From Polyangiaceae bacterium (GTDB lineage: Bacteria > Myxococcota_A > Polyangia > Polyangiales > Polyangiaceae): a stretch of DNA of 64,000 nucleotides. The notes under the pieces are model-generated. The model did no database searches, was not told the origin of the DNA, and was given only the letters and a program-made list of their open reading frames with translations. Both the position numbers and the translations under genes were made by a program. The DNA lies in assembly GCA_023150915.1 (NCBI GenBank), contig JAKLKA010000019.1, positions 1 to 64,000 on the forward strand, in the 5' to 3' direction. Each line of letters opens with the position of its first letter. Position 1 is the first letter of the stretch. Positions 1,391 through 23,178 of this stretch are shown piece after piece.

Positions 1391-1819
1391 GTGACCCAAC
1401 GATCTGGTTTCGCCGCGCCGCTGAGCCTGATGCTCGCCATCGGAGCGGGTGTCTCGCTGGGAGCAGTCAGCTGGTGGTCGTGGTCTCCCGCGTTGGTGCG
1501 CTGGTACATGGTAGCGCCCTTGGCAATCGCCGCGACGTCGGCTCTCCTGTGGAGCCACCCCGCGAGACGTTGGGGATGGCTGGCGGCGTTGAGTGTTACC
1601 GTCACCGCGTCTCTGGTGATCACGATTGCGTGGGCCCTACCGAGCCCGGTGCGAGATGCCTGGTGCCGGGCTCCGACCGCGCGGTGCCCAGATCGCCTCG
1701 TGACGGTCGCGCTCCCCGCAGTCGGCCTTCTGGCAGGGGGTTTGGGCGCGCTCTTCACCTGGTTGCTCGCGAGGCTCCGCTTGCGGATGTCTTCATACCA
1801 GCAGGGCGGCGGCGAATGA
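1391..1819 (+). CDS. Small four-helix membrane protein, hypothetical
   Basis: 142 residues from a GTG start. Four hydrophobic segments can be seen at about residues 7-28, 34-54, 61-83 and 103-128. A Cys-containing loop ('WCRAPTARCPDR') lies between helices 3 and 4. The stop overlaps the start of the next gene (ATGA at 1816), so the two are probably translationally coupled and the lipoprotein downstream may be a partner at the membrane. No family is recognised and no charged or catalytic motif suggests a transport or enzymatic role. Confidence 0.6.
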   Translation: MTQRSGFAAPLSLMLAIGAGVSLGAVSWWSWSPALVRWYMVAPLAIAATSALLWSHPARRWGWLAALSVTVTASLVITIAWALPSPVRDAWCRAPTARCPDRLVTVALPAVGLLAGGLGALFTWLLARLRLRMSSYQQGGGE

Positions 1820-2454
1820 CACGCGCCAGGCCGAGACTGCTTCCAGCTTGCTGGCTCCTTGCGCTGCCCGCAGCGCTCACCCTGCTTGCTTGTGGCAAGC
1901 CGACCGGAAGCCCGCCACCATCAACCGGAAGCGCGGATTCGCGGGGTGGCATGGCCTGGACGCCGCGCTCGACCACGGGCCGAACTGCCGACTCTGCGCA
2001 GCCTGCGCCCCGTCTGAGCTGCCTGCCGTCCCCAGAGCCGACTCGCGTGCCATCCGAAGGCGATCCCGTGGCGTTGTGCCGCTTCTTGTTCGGCCCGCTG
2101 GTTTCGGGTGATGTCGATGGCTTTCTGGGCCGCGTGGCTCCTGGTGTGGCCGTCTCGCCGGCGCTGCTCCCGGAGACCTTCATGGACGAGGACCGGCGCC
2201 CCGCGATGCGTAAACGCATCCTCTCGCGAAACGGGCTGCGGCGCTGGCTGGGTGTCGGGCCCGAGCTCGTCGTCCGGGTCGAGAAGGACTGCTCGATGTG
2301 TCGCCGTCCGTTCGTTGGATTTCGCATTCAGGCAGCTGCCGCGGACGTGCTGGTGACTGCGGAGGGTCGACGCATCATCGGCATCCGTGTGGAGTCGCGT
2401 CTGGGGCGCGGCGCGACGCTCGCGCACCGGAAGGATGACCAGGCTCGCTCGTAG
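1816..2454 (+). CDS. Predicted lipoprotein, hypothetical
   Basis: The start is placed at the ATG that overlaps the previous stop because it gives a clean lipoprotein signal: basic n-region, hydrophobic core and lipobox 'LTLLAC' with the Cys near residue 24. A Pro/Ser/Thr-rich linker follows, and then a ~135-residue globular domain containing 'VALCRFLFGPLVSGDVDGFL', a CSMC pair and a closing 'VLVTAEGRRIIGIRVESRLG'. The frame extends further upstream, but that part lies inside the preceding membrane protein and has no signal peptide. Function unknown. It probably works with the membrane protein encoded just upstream. Confidence 0.6.
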   Translation: MTRARPRLLPACWLLALPAALTLLACGKPTGSPPPSTGSADSRGGMAWTPRSTTGRTADSAQPAPRLSCLPSPEPTRVPSEGDPVALCRFLFGPLVSGDVDGFLGRVAPGVAVSPALLPETFMDEDRRPAMRKRILSRNGLRRWLGVGPELVVRVEKDCSMCRRPFVGFRIQAAAADVLVTAEGRRIIGIRVESRLGRGATLAHRKDDQARS

Positions 2455-2903
2455 TCGCGTTCGTCGCCCTCGCCAGCGTCGAATTCTGGTTTCTGGCCAG
2501 CGACGTGCACGCAGGCGCATCGAATGGTATCGTCGTTGCTGGCCCTCGCGGACGCGCCGGGCCAAGACGAGATTTGTCCACGACCAGTCTCCCGCCTCGC
2601 ACGAGTGGTCGACGTCTACCGTCGGTGCTGTCCGAGATCGCGCTCCTGCCTCGCAGGAAGAAGCGCATCCCGGACCGAACGAGGTCGGACTCCAGCGTCC
2701 CCTCGCCCGCGTGGGTCGTGGTCGGCGCCTGTCGTGCTCGTGCGCCAGAGAGGACGCGAGCGGCGGAGCAGGCGTTCATTCGCGCTCCGAGACGGGCGAC
2801 TCCGTGCCCAGGTGCTTGCAGGCGCGGCGCGGGTGAGGTCCGGCGCGAACCGGTTCCCGTACTGTGACTTTACACGCCATGTCCGTCGCGCAAGGCTTCG
2901 CGC
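2455..2903. other. Interval of about 450 bp without a convincing gene
   Basis: Several frames stay open here because of the high GC content, but none carries a recognisable domain. One short stretch reads 'VVAFVALASVEFWFLASDVH' in the frame of 2439. It looks like the start of a secreted protein, but its nearest ATG (2435) is in another frame, so at most it is a frameshifted leftover. A perfect 10-bp palindrome GAACCGGTTC (2847-2856) lies about 50 bp upstream of the brnT remnant and could be an operator. Nothing else is supported. Confidence 0.4.
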
Positions 2904-3075
2904 GTGGCGACCATCGTCTACGGGGACTTCGAGTGGGACAGCGACAAGGCGGCCCGCAATGTGGCCAAGCACGGCGTTCGTTGTTGCCGCCGAGTCGACA
3001 GGCGCCCGGATCCGCTTGATCAGCGCTCGCCCAGCGAGCCCCGCGCAGAGGAAGCTCTATGAAACGAAAACCTAG
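2904..3075 (+). pseudogene. brnT: brnT toxin remnant with central part deleted
   Basis: BrnT is the ribonuclease toxin of the type II BrnT/BrnA pair, normally about 90 residues. From the GTG at 2904 one frame gives a good BrnT N-terminus ('FEWDSDKAARNVAKHGV'). A different frame, ending with TAG at 3073-3075, gives the C-terminus ('RIRLISARPASPAQRKLYE'). The middle ~35-40 residues are missing and the two ends are out of frame, so no active toxin can be made. The characteristic overlap with the antitoxin start (3059) is preserved. This is best read as a toxin inactivated by internal deletion while the antitoxin stays open. Confidence 0.75.
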
Positions 3076-3301
3076 AACCCGGTCCGAGCTCGACATGTCG
3101 CGGTACGACTGGTCCAAGGCGACGCGTGGCCGATTCGCACAACGCTTCGCGGCTCGGTCACGGAAGCCACCCGTCGCCGTCAGGGTCATCGACGACGATC
3201 TCGTGGCGGCGTTCCCGGACTCCGAGTCCGTGAATCGAGCCCTGCGCGCGCTCGTTGATGCGGCGCGAGCGACCCGCCGCTCGCGCACGCGCGCCGCCTG
3301 A
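3059..3301 (+). CDS. brnA: BrnA-family antitoxin
   Basis: 80 residues. The N-terminal part 'DMSRYDWSKATRGRFAQRF' and the C-terminal 'VAAFPDSESVNRALRALVDA' match the BrnA antitoxin layout: an extended N-terminus that covers the toxin, then a ribbon-helix-helix DNA-binding segment. BrnA normally neutralises BrnT and represses its own operon. The ATG lies inside the end of the toxin reading frame, as in intact brnTA operons. Since brnT is broken upstream, this gene is now solitary. It could act as an anti-addiction factor or repressor, or be on its way to loss. The hemB tail begins two bases after its stop. Confidence 0.8.
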   Translation: MKRKPRTRSELDMSRYDWSKATRGRFAQRFAARSRKPPVAVRVIDDDLVAAFPDSESVNRALRALVDAARATRRSRTRAA

Positions 3302-3302
3302 C

Positions 3303-3530
3303 TCACCCCTTCTTCAACAGCCGCGCCGCCTCGATGGTCCCGCACGTGAATCTTCCTGCCTCCCCCGGTCGTTGCTCGCCGCGCTTCGCGCGGCTGCGCG
3401 CCGCCTGCCCCCTCCCGATCCGTGCTCGCGCCGGCTTCGCCGCGCAGGAAGGGGCACGTCGTCTCGATGCGCTCCGGGGAACTTGGAAGCTTTCGGGGCC
3501 GGCGCTGCGCGCGGATGGAGGGGGCGCGTC
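3303..3530 (-). repeat. hemB 3'-end copy A plus GC-rich module (direct repeat with 4478-4704)
   Basis: Positions 3303-3350 on the minus strand encode the last ~15 residues of HemB including a stop ('FTCGTIEAARLLKKG'), starting within the TTCACG that encodes Phe310-Thr311 of the intact gene. Positions 3351-3530 hold a GC-rich module whose hemB-proximal end reads GGCAGGAAGA on the minus strand. The whole block recurs almost unchanged at 4478-4704. It has the orientation of intact hemB at 11725-12699. It looks like a regenerated gene end left by an insertion at the hemB 3' terminus. Confidence 0.85.
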
Positions 3531-3701
3531 GTTGGGAGACCGTGCGCGCCTGCGCAGACTGGAGCCGGGCAAAGGCCGTAACCGCGATCGCCCCTGTCCG
3601 GGCGCCCGGAGAGAGCGCGTCACAACGGCGCCGCCCGGGCGCGCCCTGCTCCGCGAAGGCAGTGCCCCCAAGCCCACCCCTTTCCGTGGCATGCTCCGGG
3701 G

Positions 3702-3956
3702 GTGGGTGCTCCCAGCTACGACGAAGCGACGCTCGCGCGATACTTCCAGCCAGTCCACGCCGAGACATACGCGGACGGGCGCATTGGCGCACTCCTCATG
3801 CGGTTGCGGGACGAGCAGCCGGACCTCATCCTCGCCGTCGAAGACGTTGACCGGTCCCAGATCAGGGACGCTCTGGAGCGCACGCCCGAGGAGCGCCTGA
3901 GAGCGTGCTTCCAGATGGCGGCAGCCTACGGCGGAATGCGCGTTGTCGCTCGCTGA
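3702..3956 (+). CDS. Small partner protein of a nucleotidyltransferase module (copy 1)
   Basis: 84 residues from a GTG start. The protein is helical and acidic, with the stretch 'VEDVDRSQIRDALERTPEER'. This resembles residues ~38-57 of the small protein at 10552-10785 ('IADVDRTLITLSLEQSPWDR'), which likewise precedes a related nucleotidyltransferase. Its stop overlaps the TTG start of that downstream gene by 14 nt. The conserved pairing suggests a two-component unit, plausibly toxin-antitoxin, with this the small regulatory or antitoxin partner. That role is inferred from context only; no named family is recognised. Confidence 0.65.
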   Translation: MGAPSYDEATLARYFQPVHAETYADGRIGALLMRLRDEQPDLILAVEDVDRSQIRDALERTPEERLRACFQMAAAYGGMRVVAR

Positions 3957-4440
3957 CGATACGCAAGCGCTGCTGGTCGGACTGACCAGTGCGGGCGTCG
4001 AGTTCATCGTCGTCGGAATGAGTGCAGCAGTGGCGCAGGGTGTGCCCGCGGTAACCTTCGACCTCGACATCGTGCATCGACGATCCGATGAGAACGTCGA
4101 CCGGCTCATGGCGTGGCTCTTGGATCACGACTCGTTCCATCGCTTCGACCTGGCGAACAGGCGGCTGCCGCCCACTCGGGAGCTCTTGCTCGGCACCGGT
4201 CACGTGAACTTGCAAACCAACCTCGGAAAACTCGACATCCTCTGCGAGTTGGCGCTGGGCGAGGGGTATGACGAGCTGGTGGAAGACACGGTGCTCGTGG
4301 AGACGGGCTCGGTGTTGGTGCGGGTGCTTGGGTTGCCACGACTGATCGAGGTCAAGGCGCGCGCGAACCGCGCGAAGGACCGCGCGGTGCTGCCGTTACT
4401 CATCGCAACTCTCGACGAGCTGAAATCGCGCCGGGGATGA
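3943..4440 (+). CDS. Nucleotidyltransferase-fold protein (DUF6036/AbiEii-like), copy 1
   Basis: 165 residues from a TTG start overlapping the upstream small gene. The N-terminus 'AGVEFIVVGMSAAVAQGVPA' followed by 'TFDLDIVHRR' is the pol-beta-type nucleotidyltransferase core: a Gly-containing turn, then Asp-x-Asp (DLD). The C-terminal 'LIEVKARANRAKDRAVLPLL' is the conserved Lys/Arg-rich helix of this family. The glycine pair usual in the turn (VGG in the paralogue at 10071) is VGM here, so activity may be weakened. Such enzymes act as toxins or antitoxins in AbiE- and MNT-like systems. The module lies between hemB tails A and B. Confidence 0.75.
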   Translation: MSLADDTQALLVGLTSAGVEFIVVGMSAAVAQGVPAVTFDLDIVHRRSDENVDRLMAWLLDHDSFHRFDLANRRLPPTRELLLGTGHVNLQTNLGKLDILCELALGEGYDELVEDTVLVETGSVLVRVLGLPRLIEVKARANRAKDRAVLPLLIATLDELKSRRG

Positions 4441-4477
4441 CGGCCCTCGCCGCTTGCGCGGTCTGTCCGGGGGACAC

Positions 4478-4704
4478 TCAGGTCTTCTTCAACAACCTAG
4501 CCGCCTCGATGGCCCCGTACGTGAATTTTCCTGCCTCCCCCGGTCGTTGCTCGCCGCGCTGCGCGCGGCTGCGCGCCGCCTGCCCCCTCCTTATCCGTGC
4601 GCGCGCCGGCTTCGCCGCGCAGGAAGGGGCAGGTTGTCTCGATGCGCTCCGGGGAATTTGGAAGCTCTTCGGGCCGGCGCTGCGCGCGGATGGAGGGGGC
4701 GCGT
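4478..4704 (-). repeat. hemB 3'-end copy B plus GC-rich module
   Basis: Second copy of the block at 3303-3530. Positions 4478-4525 encode on the minus strand 'FTYGAIEAARLLKKT' and a stop, again starting at the TTCACG of hemB codons 310-311. Positions 4526-4704 repeat the GC-rich module with only scattered substitutions. Short pieces of the module's distal end (ATGGAGGGGGCGCGTC) also appear near 9962. The block ends shortly before the Uma2 gene. Confidence 0.85.
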
Positions 4705-4815
4705 AGTCCCGAGACAGCCGAGGCCGGCGCCGCGTCGGTCGGCTCTGCAAGTGCATCTCGCACATGGGACCCGTTGCAACGACGCCGTGAGCCGGAGGGG
4801 TGCTATGCTCCTGCC

Positions 4816-5394
4816 GTGTCGTCGCAAGCTCGCCAGCTCGCCACGTACGAGGACCTATTGGCGCTGCCGGAGGAAACTCGGGCGGAGCTCATCGGCGGAA
4901 CGATCGTCGTCGCGCCATCGCCCTCGCCGATCCACCAGAGCTCGGTTGCCGAGCTGTACGCGGAGCTACGGGCACCGTTCCAGCGCGCACGCGGTGGCCC
5001 GGGCGGATGGTGGCTCATCCCCGATGTCGATGTCGCGTTTGGCGCCCACGACGTCTTGCGTCCGGACATCTCGGGCTGGCGGAGAGAGCGCGTCCCCGAG
5101 TTTCCCACGGCGCGGCCGGTGCGACATCGACCGGATTGGATCTGCGAAGGGCTTTCGCCCGCGACCGCTGCGCGTGACCAGAGCGAGAAGAGAGCCATTT
5201 ACCAGCGCGCCGGCGTGCCGTGGTTCTGGCAGCTCGACCCAACGAATCGCACGCTCAGCGTCCTCCGACTGACGGCAGAGGGCTATGTGGTCGAACGCGT
5301 GGTCGGAGAAGCGGAGACCGCGAGACTTCCGCCATTCGACGCGATGGAGCTCGACATTCGAGCGCTGTTTCCACCGGCGCCACCGAATGCATAG
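4816..5394 (+). CDS. Uma2 family (DUF820) putative restriction-endonuclease-fold protein
   Basis: 192 residues from a GTG chosen because it follows the repeat and begins directly before the family's usual N-terminus ('ATYEDLLALPEETRAELIGG'). The PD-(D/E)xK-type core can be followed: an early Glu in 'RAELIGG', Asp in 'VLRPDISGW', then 'ICEGLSPATAARDQSEKRAI' and 'GVPWFWQLDP'. The length is typical. Uma2 proteins are expanded in cyanobacteria and Myxococcota; their cellular role is poorly defined, with nuclease activity inferred from the fold. It lies between hemB tail B and a hemB internal fragment, so it is probably cargo of an insertion. Confidence 0.85.
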   Translation: MSSQARQLATYEDLLALPEETRAELIGGTIVVAPSPSPIHQSSVAELYAELRAPFQRARGGPGGWWLIPDVDVAFGAHDVLRPDISGWRRERVPEFPTARPVRHRPDWICEGLSPATAARDQSEKRAIYQRAGVPWFWQLDPTNRTLSVLRLTAEGYVVERVVGEAETARLPPFDAMELDIRALFPPAPPNA

Positions 5395-5592
5395 GGGCTG
5401 ACTCATCGCGCTCTCGTGCGGCGCCCGCGCAGTCACGCTGCAAGCGTGCAGACGGACGTGGCACGAGCGCAGCGGGCGGCCGCCGACAATCTCCGCCGAA
5501 CCACGCCCTGCCGGCCGTCCCGCGGGGGTTCGGGGCAGCACTCGACCCGACCAAGGACGCCGCGTACCCTTGGACGCGGTGGGTTTTGGCAG

Positions 5593-6120
5593 ATGGAATT
5601 TCCTACGCGCCGGTCTCGCATCTCGAAGTGGTTGATCTCGGTCGGCATGTGGGCAATGACGGGCTCTTGCCGCAACGCCGACGCGTCGTACGTGGGCACG
5701 TTTGGCGGCGACTTCACCGTTTATCGCGCGATCTTTGTGGCCCTACCGGATGGGGGCGAAGCGAGCTACGTCGCACACAAGGAGACGACGCCCGGCCCCG
5801 ACAAGCTCGAGGGGGACATCGACATCGCGAAGAAACCCGAGACAGCGGCGTCCTACCAGGTGAGCGTGAGAGCACGGTTCATGTCCTGCGCCTTCACGGC
5901 GCACGTCGAGCAGGACCGCCTGCTCGTAGACGAGAAGCAGCGTTGTGAAATCGAGGTCGAGGGCTATCACGGTGACGCCGACATCAAAGGCACGCTCACA
6001 CCTCCGAGCGACGGGGCGATGAAGTCCGCGCTCACGCTCACTCCGCGGGCGGCGAAGCCTCCGAGCGGCGTGAACGTCGACTTCGTGGGAAATCGCGGGC
6101 GCACGATCAACCGTCCCTGA
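5593..6120 (+). CDS. Putative secreted or lipoprotein, hypothetical
   Basis: 175 residues if the ATG at 5593 is the start. The N-terminus is basic, then moderately hydrophobic and ends in 'MTGSC', which could be a weak lipobox. The rest is hydrophilic and beta-rich ('YVGTFGGDFTVYRAIFVALP', 'AHVEQDRLLVDEKQRCEIEV'). The frame continues upstream to 5416 without signal-like sequence. No family recognised. Base composition is less extreme than its neighbours', consistent with acquisition as part of the island. Confidence 0.5.
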   Translation: MEFPTRRSRISKWLISVGMWAMTGSCRNADASYVGTFGGDFTVYRAIFVALPDGGEASYVAHKETTPGPDKLEGDIDIAKKPETAASYQVSVRARFMSCAFTAHVEQDRLLVDEKQRCEIEVEGYHGDADIKGTLTPPSDGAMKSALTLTPRAAKPPSGVNVDFVGNRGRTINRP

Positions 6121-19215: not shown

Positions 19216-19296
19216 GCGGCGCCCGAATTCGCCGGCTATTGCGGCGGATCGGGCCCTCCCGCCCTCTTCCGCAATGTGCCAGAATGCGGCTTCAGC

Positions 19297-20409
<1,113 letters not shown>

Positions 20410-23178
20410 ATGACCCAGTTCGCCATCAAGACTTCCTTGCCGCGCTACCTGCGGGTCGAGCAAGCAAAGATCGAGAAGATCGCCCGGGAGTACGGCCTGG
20501 ACTTCTTCCCCGTCATCTTCGAGATGCTGTCGTACGACCAGATGAACGAGATCGCGGCCTATGGCGGCTTCCCCAACCGCTACCCGCACTGGCGCTACGG
20601 CATGGAGTACGAGCGCCTGAGCAAGTCGTACGAGTACGGCCTCTCGAAGATCTACGAGATGGTCATCAACAACAACCCTTCGTACGCCTACCTGCTCGAG
20701 GGGAACAGCTTCACCGACCAGAAGCTGGTGATGTGTCACGTGTTCGGGCACGTGGACTTCTTCAAGAACAACTTCGCGTTTCGCCCCACGGATCTGGATG
20801 CCAGTGGGGACGTGGTCGACGCCACGCGCCACCTGGCGGGCCCCTATGACCCGAACCGCAAGTGGATGGACAAGATGGCGAACCACGCCACCGCCGTGCG
20901 GCGGGTGGTGGATCGGTTCGGCATCGCGCGCGTCGAAGAGTTCATCGACGTCTGCCTGTCCCTCGAGAACCTGATCGACGCCTATTCGCGCTTCGTGGTC
21001 CGCGAGCGCACCGAGCGCCGGGAAGACGAGCCGAGTGAGATCGAGGTCCCGCGCCTGCGCGCCAAGGACTACATGGAGGACTTCATCAACCCCGAGGAGT
21101 TCCTCGAGGAGCAGAAGAAGAAGATCGAGGCGGACCGCGAGAAGCTGAAGAAGCACCCGCCCGAGCCGGTGCAAGACGTGCTCGCCTTCTTGCTCGAGAA
21201 CGCCCCGCTCGAGAAGTGGGAGCGGCTGATCCTCTCGATCATCCGCGAAGAGGGCTACTACTTCGTCCCGCAGATGCAGACGAAGGTGATGAACGAAGGT
21301 TGGGCCTGCGTGGCGCCCGACTCACTGGTCTACACGGAGCGGGGGCTCGTGCCGATGGAGCGCGTCGTCGCCGGTGATGCGACCATGGTCTTCGACGGCG
21401 GCGAGCGACTGCAGAAGATCTACGACCGCAACATCATCCGGAATCACCCGACCATCACGCTGCGCACGCGGCGCGGGCTCGAGCTCACGGGCTCGAACAA
21501 CCACCGCCTGCTCCTGGCAGACGGTCAGACCTGGAAGCGCCTCGACGAGCTTCAGGTTGGGGATCGCGTCGCGATCAGCGGGGCCCACGGTTTCGGCCCC
21601 GAGCGCGAGGTGGCCGTCGATTGGCAGCCAGCCTCTCGCGTCAACCTCGACGACGTCGCCGACGAGGTCGGCGTGTCGGTCTGGACGGTGCTGAGGCACC
21701 GGGCCGGTCGAACCACCCGGCACGGGGAGGCCATCGCTGCCGCGCTCGAGTGCTACGACACCCCGCAGAACCTGGCTCGAAATCACCGGCGCCGCCGGCC
21801 CGTGCGCATCCCCGAGAAGGTCGACGCGAAGCTGGGCGCGTTCTTGGGGTACTTGATCGGCGATGGGCACGTCAGCAGGGTGAAGCGGCACCTCGGGCTG
21901 ACCACCGGCGACGAAGCTCAGGCCGTCGAGTTCGCGAGCCTGTCGAGCGAGCTGTTCGGCGTCTTCCCGACCATGAAGTGGGACGACGGCCGCTGGCGCG
22001 TGCTCGTCCACGCCGAGACGGTCAGCGACTTCCTCACCGAATTCGTCGGTCTCACGACCGGGCCCAGCGCAAGAGAGAAGCGCATCCCCGACGTGATCCT
22101 CCGCTCTCCCGAGCGCGTCGTCCGAGCGTTCCTCTCGGCATACTTCGACTCTGATGCGTACGCCGGCAGCCAAGGAGTGATCCTCTCGAGCGCCAGCCAT
22201 GATCTCGTGAGCCAGACGCAGCTCTTGCTGCTGAACTTCGGCGTCCTCAGCCGAGTGCGCGCGCAAGCCGATGGGACGTTCCACCTGCATGTCACCGGCG
22301 CCAGCGCCGAACGCTTCCAGGAGCGCGTCGGCTTCAGCCTCGATCGCAAGACGCGCGCTCTCGAAGCGTATCTCGCGGACCACACGTGGTTCCTGAAAGA
22401 AGACTGGAGCGACGAGGTCGTCGCGCTCGAGCCGGGCGTCTCCGATGTGTACGACATTTCGGTCACCGAGACCCATCGCTACGTGGCGCAGGGGTTCGTC
22501 AATCACAACTCGTTCTGGCACTCGCGCTTGATGACCCAGCGCGTGGCCGACCCCAGCGACATCATCGACTACGCCGAGAACAACGCCGGCGTGATGGCCA
22601 CCAGCGGCGGGCGCCTGAACCCGTACAAGCTGGGTGTCGAGCTCTTCCGCCACATCGAAGAGCGCTGGAACAAGGGCCAGTTCGGCCGCGAGTGGGACGA
22701 GTGCGACGACCTGGACCAGAAGCGAAGCTGGGACCTGCGCCTGGGGCTCGGCACGAAGAAGATCTTCGAGGTGCGCGCCCTGTACACCGACGTGACCTTC
22801 ATCGACGAGTTCTTGACCCCCGAGTTCTGCATCGAGAACAAGCTGTTCAGCTTCGACTGGTCGAACCGGAACGAGCGCTACGAGATCGCCTCGCGGGAGT
22901 TCAAGGCGGTCAAAGAGAAGCTTCTGCACTCGCTCACCAACTTCGGCAACCCCTACATCTATGTGGTGGACGCCAACTTCGAGAACAAGGGCGAGCTCTT
23001 GCTTCAGCACGATCACCGGGGCGTGGATCTGCGCGCCGACTACGCCAAAGAGACGCTGCAGGCCCTGGTGCGCGTTTGGAAACGGCCGGTGGTGCTGGCC
23101 ACCTTCCTGGACAACAAGCCGGCCCTCTTGCGCTTCGACGGCAAAGACCACACCGTGAAGAACGACGCCACGCCATGA
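20410..23178 (+). CDS. spoVR: SpoVR family protein interrupted by an in-frame intein
   Basis: 922 codons. The exteins are 299 residues (start to 'TKVMNEGWA') and 222 residues (from 'SFWHSRLMTQRVADP'). Together they make a 521-residue SpoVR, the family's usual size. The join recreates the highly conserved 'NEGWASFWH'. The 401 residues between form an intein (annotated separately). SpoVR/YcgB proteins work with YeaH and PrkA in sporulation and stress responses, with unclear biochemistry. yeaH ends directly before this start and the next gene overlaps the stop by ATGA. Function of the mature protein depends on splicing. Confidence 0.95.
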   Translation: MTQFAIKTSLPRYLRVEQAKIEKIAREYGLDFFPVIFEMLSYDQMNEIAAYGGFPNRYPHWRYGMEYERLSKSYEYGLSKIYEMVINNNPSYAYLLEGNSFTDQKLVMCHVFGHVDFFKNNFAFRPTDLDASGDVVDATRHLAGPYDPNRKWMDKMANHATAVRRVVDRFGIARVEEFIDVCLSLENLIDAYSRFVVRERTERREDEPSEIEVPRLRAKDYMEDFINPEEFLEEQKKKIEADREKLKKHPPEPVQDVLAFLLENAPLEKWERLILSIIREEGYYFVPQMQTKVMNEGWACVAPDSLVYTERGLVPMERVVAGDATMVFDGGERLQKIYDRNIIRNHPTITLRTRRGLELTGSNNHRLLLADGQTWKRLDELQVGDRVAISGAHGFGPEREVAVDWQPASRVNLDDVADEVGVSVWTVLRHRAGRTTRHGEAIAAALECYDTPQNLARNHRRRRPVRIPEKVDAKLGAFLGYLIGDGHVSRVKRHLGLTTGDEAQAVEFASLSSELFGVFPTMKWDDGRWRVLVHAETVSDFLTEFVGLTTGPSAREKRIPDVILRSPERVVRAFLSAYFDSDAYAGSQGVILSSASHDLVSQTQLLLLNFGVLSRVRAQADGTFHLHVTGASAERFQERVGFSLDRKTRALEAYLADHTWFLKEDWSDEVVALEPGVSDVYDISVTETHRYVAQGFVNHNSFWHSRLMTQRVADPSDIIDYAENNAGVMATSGGRLNPYKLGVELFRHIEERWNKGQFGREWDECDDLDQKRSWDLRLGLGTKKIFEVRALYTDVTFIDEFLTPEFCIENKLFSFDWSNRNERYEIASREFKAVKEKLLHSLTNFGNPYIYVVDANFENKGELLLQHDHRGVDLRADYAKETLQALVRVWKRPVVLATFLDNKPALLRFDGKDHTVKNDATP
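21307..22509 (+). mobile_element. Intein with LAGLIDADG homing endonuclease inside SpoVR
   Basis: 401 residues, in frame, beginning with Cys1 ('CVAPDSLVYTERGLVPMERV', splicing block A) and ending '...VYDISVTETHRYVAQGFVNHN' before Ser+1. The penultimate His and terminal Asn needed for cyclisation are present. Block B is 'LELTGSNNHRLLLADGQTW' with an S-x-x-H. Two LAGLIDADG-like motifs are seen: 'LGAFLGYLIGDGHVS' (with GDGH) and 'VVRAFLSAYFDSDAY'. Inteins self-splice from the host protein, and the endonuclease drives their spread to empty alleles. All catalytic positions look intact, so it is probably splicing-competent. Confidence 0.95.

Follow-up and report, generated by a model that had tools for sequence, protein, structure and literature searches.

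We confirmed at the sequence level that the spoVR gene of a Polyangiaceae bacterium is interrupted by an intein with a homing endonuclease. The insert is very probably (roughly 93%) a full-length class 1 intein that carries a LAGLIDADG homing endonuclease (HEN) and a putative helix-turn-helix (HTH) accessory domain and that homes at its insertion site, SpoVR-a. The DNA analysed, here called the window, comprises 64,000 nucleotides (GCA_023150915.1, contig JAKLKA010000019.1, positions 1-64,000, forward strand). Within it, the start of spoVR, a sporulation and stress gene, directly abuts the stop codon of yeaH/yhbH, and the following features were assigned.

19276..20409, + strand: yeaH/yhbH (DUF444) gene (NCBIfam NF003711, 659.6 bits; TIGR02877, 291 bits)
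20410..23178, + strand: intein-bearing spoVR, 922 codons plus stop, one open frame (Pfam SpoVR, 414 bits)
20410..21306, + strand: N-extein, SpoVR residues 1-299, ending ...MNEGWA
21307..22509, + strand: intein, 401 residues, C1 to N401
21307..21309, + strand: catalytic Cys1, invariant in 33 site-a inteins
21475..21516, + strand: splicing block B, GLELTGSNNHRLLL (Ser63, 32/33; His66, 33/33)
21640..21759, + strand: LacI-like HTH, residues 112-151 (Pfam LacI)
21811..22341, + strand: LAGLIDADG homing endonuclease domain, bounds approximate (Pfam LAGLIDADG_3; 7qsu alignment)
21841..21876, + strand: LAGLIDADG motif 1, FLGYLIGDGHVS (acidic D186)
22126..22167, + strand: LAGLIDADG motif 2, AFLSAYFDSDAYAG (acidic D283)
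22444..22488, + strand: splicing block F, DVYDISVTETHRYVA (D383 and H390, invariant 33/33)
22492..22509, + strand: splicing block G, GFVNHN (H400 and N401, 33/33; TIGR01443)
22510..23178, + strand: C-extein and stop codon, beginning with Ser+1 (TCG) of SFWH

The original prediction had placed a 401-residue insertion within the conserved SpoVR motif NEGWA^SFWH, and its coordinates proved exact: the Cys1 codon starts at 21307, the last Asn codon (the 401st) finishes at 22509, and the flanks read NEGWA and SFWH. The host domain is broken at this point, as the Pfam SpoVR match is split by the insert into two stretches totalling 414 bits; both this family and SpoVR_C (39.2 bits) scored above cut-off on the flanks. 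Removal of the insert in silico left a SpoVR of 521 residues, in agreement with the host length of about 521 given beforehand.

On the insert itself, Pfam Intein_splicing reached 43.1 bits (cut-off 35.8) and LAGLIDADG_3 reached 64.4 bits in two stretches (cut-off 22.5), scores that together with that of SpoVR exclude chance. NCBIfam intein_Cterm (TIGR01443) was also above cut-off, and intein_Nterm (TIGR01445) was slightly under it (22.2 bits; cut-off 24.5). All class 1 splicing residues are present, namely C1, the SNNH of block B (TGSNNH, of the form S-x-x-H), D383, H390 and the terminal FVNHN|S with Ser+1 next, so that Cys1, block B, the two LAGLIDADG-like motifs and the His-Asn pair before Ser+1 were all found exactly as first described. 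The insert lies in frame in a conserved host, has exact boundaries and is absent from orthologues, as a class 1 intein would be. The closest solved chains by sequence were HEN-bearing archaeal VMA inteins (7qsu, E 2.6e-18), and Foldseek with the insert of the predicted precursor returned 7qss (E 2.4e-17); this model has a mean pLDDT of 72.6, is weak at the splice junctions and has low-confidence N-terminal Hint strands.

The alignment of the endonuclease domain with 7qsu begins at residue 158, and both motifs of the window intein keep the metal-binding acidic residue (GYLIGDGH, D186; AYFDSDAY, D283). Between block B and the endonuclease lies the LacI-like HTH, which in the window intein matches Pfam LacI below cut-off (E 0.017) and which is matched in six of ten members of the SpoVR-intein family (best E 2.7e-4). 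The precursor model places helices at 413-420, 424-431 and 439-449 in this region, and the sequence suggests that it probably serves the endonuclease as an accessory module for binding DNA. Cleavage is modulated by HTH-like accessory domains in TliVMA and PI-TkoII (PMC8966425), so the HTH of the SpoVR intein is not new in kind.

The same-site intein is patchily distributed: about 30 further myxobacteria and certain large phages have it, and most relatives lack it. A SpoVR search of 97 related genomes gave many unbroken matches and, in about ten further genomes, a match interrupted near profile position 270 with an intein next to the break. An intein profile search detected the SpoVR intein in 22 of the 318 genomes searched within the class and in 18 of 379 taken from the phylum, three of the genomes in these tallies having contig-end pieces only. 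In both searches, strong matches in Myxococcota fell in SpoVR only; far weaker ones, where identified, were in GyrB, PhoH, FtsH, DUF362 and DnaB. All 29 bacterial inteins that could be read end to end are at NEGWA^S. A scan with the single window intein and window-specific patterns found only a remote archaeal intein, and the distribution given here covers Myxococcota and phages. Empty alleles in relatives, for which the original prediction had called, were found in the congener G002 and in many other genomes, reading NEGWAS[FY]WH or NEGWATYWH with no insert.

The uninterrupted SpoVR of G002 is 95.8% identical to the window exteins at the protein level, and the extein DNA of the window is closer to this empty allele (92.9% identity) than to that of the intein-bearing congener G001 (89.1%). 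The SpoVR tree likewise groups the window with G002 (support 99/89), and the presence and absence of the intein on this tree require at least nine gain or loss changes. With the window genome (G000) and G001 both filled, the intein may equally well have been lost by G002 or gained separately by the other two. A recent transfer between the window lineage and G001 was considered and is not claimed: the dS of the intein (0.80) exceeds that of the exteins (0.41), yet neighbouring genes lie at 0.50-0.68, and the higher intein value can be accounted for by codon bias or by small differences in age.

Residue conservation was assessed in 33 same-site copies (29 bacterial and four phage). C1, H66, D383, H390, H400 and N401 are invariant in all of them and Ser63 is kept in 32, the exception being one S63A. 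A LAGLIDADG acidic residue is altered in four copies (G019, D283S; G078, D283E; G103, D186A; G494, D283A), all of which retain the splicing residues. Fixed splicing residues together with acidic changes in the HEN fit an element that must splice at every stage and whose endonuclease decays once fixation is reached, as in the established homing-cycle model (PMC1654191). The host, once translated, would undergo an N-S shift at C1, followed by transfer to Ser+1 and cyclisation of Asn401, which would release the intein and join the exteins into a normal 521-residue SpoVR. The freed endonuclease would then cut empty spoVR at NEGWA^S[FY]WH, and repair of the cut allele would copy the intein in. The sequences show the exact in-frame insertion, a full and strongly constrained set of splicing residues, intact endonuclease motifs, empty alleles and the patchy same-site distribution in Myxococcota and phages; splicing, cutting of the SpoVR-a site and recent movement are inferred, as is any carriage between bacteria by phages.

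The codon at the +1 position differs between filled and empty alleles. It is TCN in 26 and AGY in three of the 29 filled bacterial alleles, with no Thr codon; among the 23 empty alleles, TCN accounts for six, AGY for 12 and Thr (ACN) for five. The association of TCN with the intein gave a Fisher p value of 3e-6 with kinship ignored. Independent pairs are few, and across the eight available an average of 5.7 had TCN on the intein side and 0.5 showed the reverse, with a median p of 0.06 in the sign test. This bias fits co-conversion of the donor flank or a preference of the endonuclease, and alleles with Thr at +1 may be poor targets. The association is not universal, since the five filled phage records (four distinct sequences) all have AGY.

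An alternative explanation is that the intein splices and no longer moves, being inherited vertically within genera with an idle endonuclease, its patchiness arising by losses. The intein tree agrees with this at the shallow level, where its groups mostly parallel the host groups, as do the altered HEN acidic residues of the four relatives. However, both acidic residues of the window HEN are intact, and dN/dS between the window and G001 is 0.14 for the HEN, the same as for the whole intein (splicing ends 0.05-0.08; HTH 0.42). In addition, the SpoVR tree calls for at least nine gain or loss changes, and an intein is not easily lost with precision. We consider an immobile intein unlikely and prefer a homing one.

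The place of the insertion may bear on the biochemistry of SpoVR. No PDB chain matched SpoVR by sequence, and a Foldseek search with the predicted structure of a phage SpoVR (mean pLDDT 85.8) gave no significant solved relative. VIA-align of the same model put M1 aminopeptidases first, at Z 10.1 and 9.5, followed mainly by other zinc metallopeptidases or proteins related to them (ACE2, DPP III, BlaR1, IrrE, a DNA-protein-crosslink-repair protease and Ste24). Two helices of the model bear H110-xxx-H114 and E296 (of NEGWA), which are among the invariant residues of SpoVR, and NEGWA resembles NEGFA, a motif that supplies a zinc ligand in M1 enzymes. HxxxH together with NEGWA may form a degenerate metal site of the gluzincin type, a zincin-like site that lacks the usual HExxH glutamate and would be split by the intein. 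The insertion site marks a SpoVR motif that looks like the metal-ligand motif of M1 peptidases, which is a lead on the biochemistry of SpoVR.

Inteins are commonly inserted in active-site motifs. Because this one interrupts a probable metal-site motif, an inactive SpoVR precursor is plausible, and conditional splicing is documented in other inteins (PMC6195587). The original prediction suggested that splicing could gate SpoVR activity; in that case splicing would depend on stress or development, the intein having been co-opted as a switch. The analysis gave no support for such gating. Against it, most Myxococcota SpoVRs, that of a congener included, have no intein; neither a conserved extra cysteine nor another sensor-like feature was seen in the splicing domain of the 33 same-site copies; and the copies act as a mobile element, being patchy, with decaying HENs and fixed splicing residues. 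We do not favour the gate and regard it as very improbable. Repeated targeting of SpoVR in bacteria and phages, tied to its near-invariant probable metal-site motif, is supported by the data; it is highly doubtful that, in addition to such targeting through the motif, some lineages with a probably dead HEN (such as G019, G103 and G494) retain the intein as a condition-dependent switch that keeps SpoVR inactive until it splices. A non-working insert can practically be dismissed, since nothing was found to favour either a dead insertion or an error of assembly, spoVR is one open frame, the splicing residues are invariant, and the same arrangement in independent genomes (G001, on a 2.5-Mb contig, and G103, a single-contig genome) refutes an artefact.

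Among about 80 phage SpoVRs in IMG/VR, an allelic intein at the first site was found in four distinct proteins (L104, L177, L178, which equals L179, and L181), 37-39% identical to the window intein. Six phage inteins (L104, L170, L172, L174, L175 and L176) occupy a second site, which follows V[IV]N at SpoVR residue 87 and at which no break was seen among the bacterial SpoVR matches listed. The L104 gene (IMGVR_UViG_3300027754_005796, 1790-5911) holds both inteins in one frame of 1373 codons, with yeaH upstream. L175 and L177, whose SpoVR exteins are closely alike, hold different inteins, at the second and the first site, respectively. In the 636-kb phage LR756504.1 (L108:3911-5821), a mini-intein of about 131 residues without endonuclease is inserted at NEG^CATF, two residues upstream of the bacterial site. 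YeaH adjoins SpoVR in L104, L109 (LR756511.1) and L110 (Thermus phage MN1), in the YeaH-SpoVR order of the window; in L109 and Thermus phage MN1, YeaH, SpoVR and PrkA are neighbours as a stress module without inteins. Bacterial and phage inteins form separate clades (100/100), and the SpoVR tree also splits phage from bacterial proteins. A recent transfer from phage to bacterium was rejected on these two trees, which point to an old relation with no recent transfer visible. Phages that carry SpoVR (with YeaH and PrkA alongside where examined) and have inteins at the bacterial codon offer a route to asking whether phages move inteins between hosts.

The VMA-b inteins TliVMA and PhoVMA, from Thermococcus litoralis and Pyrococcus horikoshii (7qss, 7qsu, 7qst; PMC8966425), share with the SpoVR intein a Hint domain, a LAGLIDADG HEN and, probably, an accessory DNA-binding domain, which is HTH-like in TliVMA. 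Like it, they sit in an active-site motif of their host, the archaeal V-ATPase subunit A, and PhoVMA, with a degenerated HEN beside an active one, parallels the SpoVR-intein family. Identity in the structural alignment is about 20%, and unlike in VMA-b inteins the HTH is LacI-like and is placed after block B, ahead of the first LAGLIDADG helix. Bacterial GyrA, DnaB and PhoH inteins have the same splicing domain and LAGLIDADG_3 family in different hosts and sites, PhoH being a precedent for a stress-related host. Inteins of one kind in phages and bacteria are likewise known, for instance in mycobacteriophage portal and terminase proteins (PMC5050341); unlike those, the phage and bacterial SpoVR copies share both host gene and insertion site.

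Inteins are biased towards hosts in DNA repair and replication, and a review of them mentions neither sporulation proteins nor myxobacteria (PMC7765530). No paper among the 5.39 million open-access texts searched, a set distinct from InBase and supplementary tables, joined 'intein' with 'SpoVR'. This agrees with SpoVR being an undescribed host and falls short of proof of novelty. We consider it likely that SpoVR is an intein host new to the literature and that the element is an ordinary homing intein with a new host and insertion site. It thus adds an apparently undescribed host outside DNA metabolism, and its counterparts in phages and its graded states add to its value. A natural series within one phylum, of active-looking, degenerating, empty and allelic phage forms, makes the homing cycle testable.

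Several other SpoVR frames were examined as candidate insertions and rejected. The SpoVR of G040 (G040:C1:13791200-13792491, L038) is split into two overlapping frames with no insert, apparently by a frameshift, and the long SpoVR frames of G017, G034, G042, G062, G144 and G368 match continuously across the whole profile. The window genome has another, distantly related LAGLIDADG intein in GyrB (G000:C217:43318-43827, L024). Further Myxococcota inteins (L096, L097, L098, L099, L101 and L102) were found in PhoH, in FtsH of two genomes, in a DUF362 protein and in DnaB, where a single gene matches the splicing domain twice. As intein hosts, FtsH and DUF362 may deserve attention.
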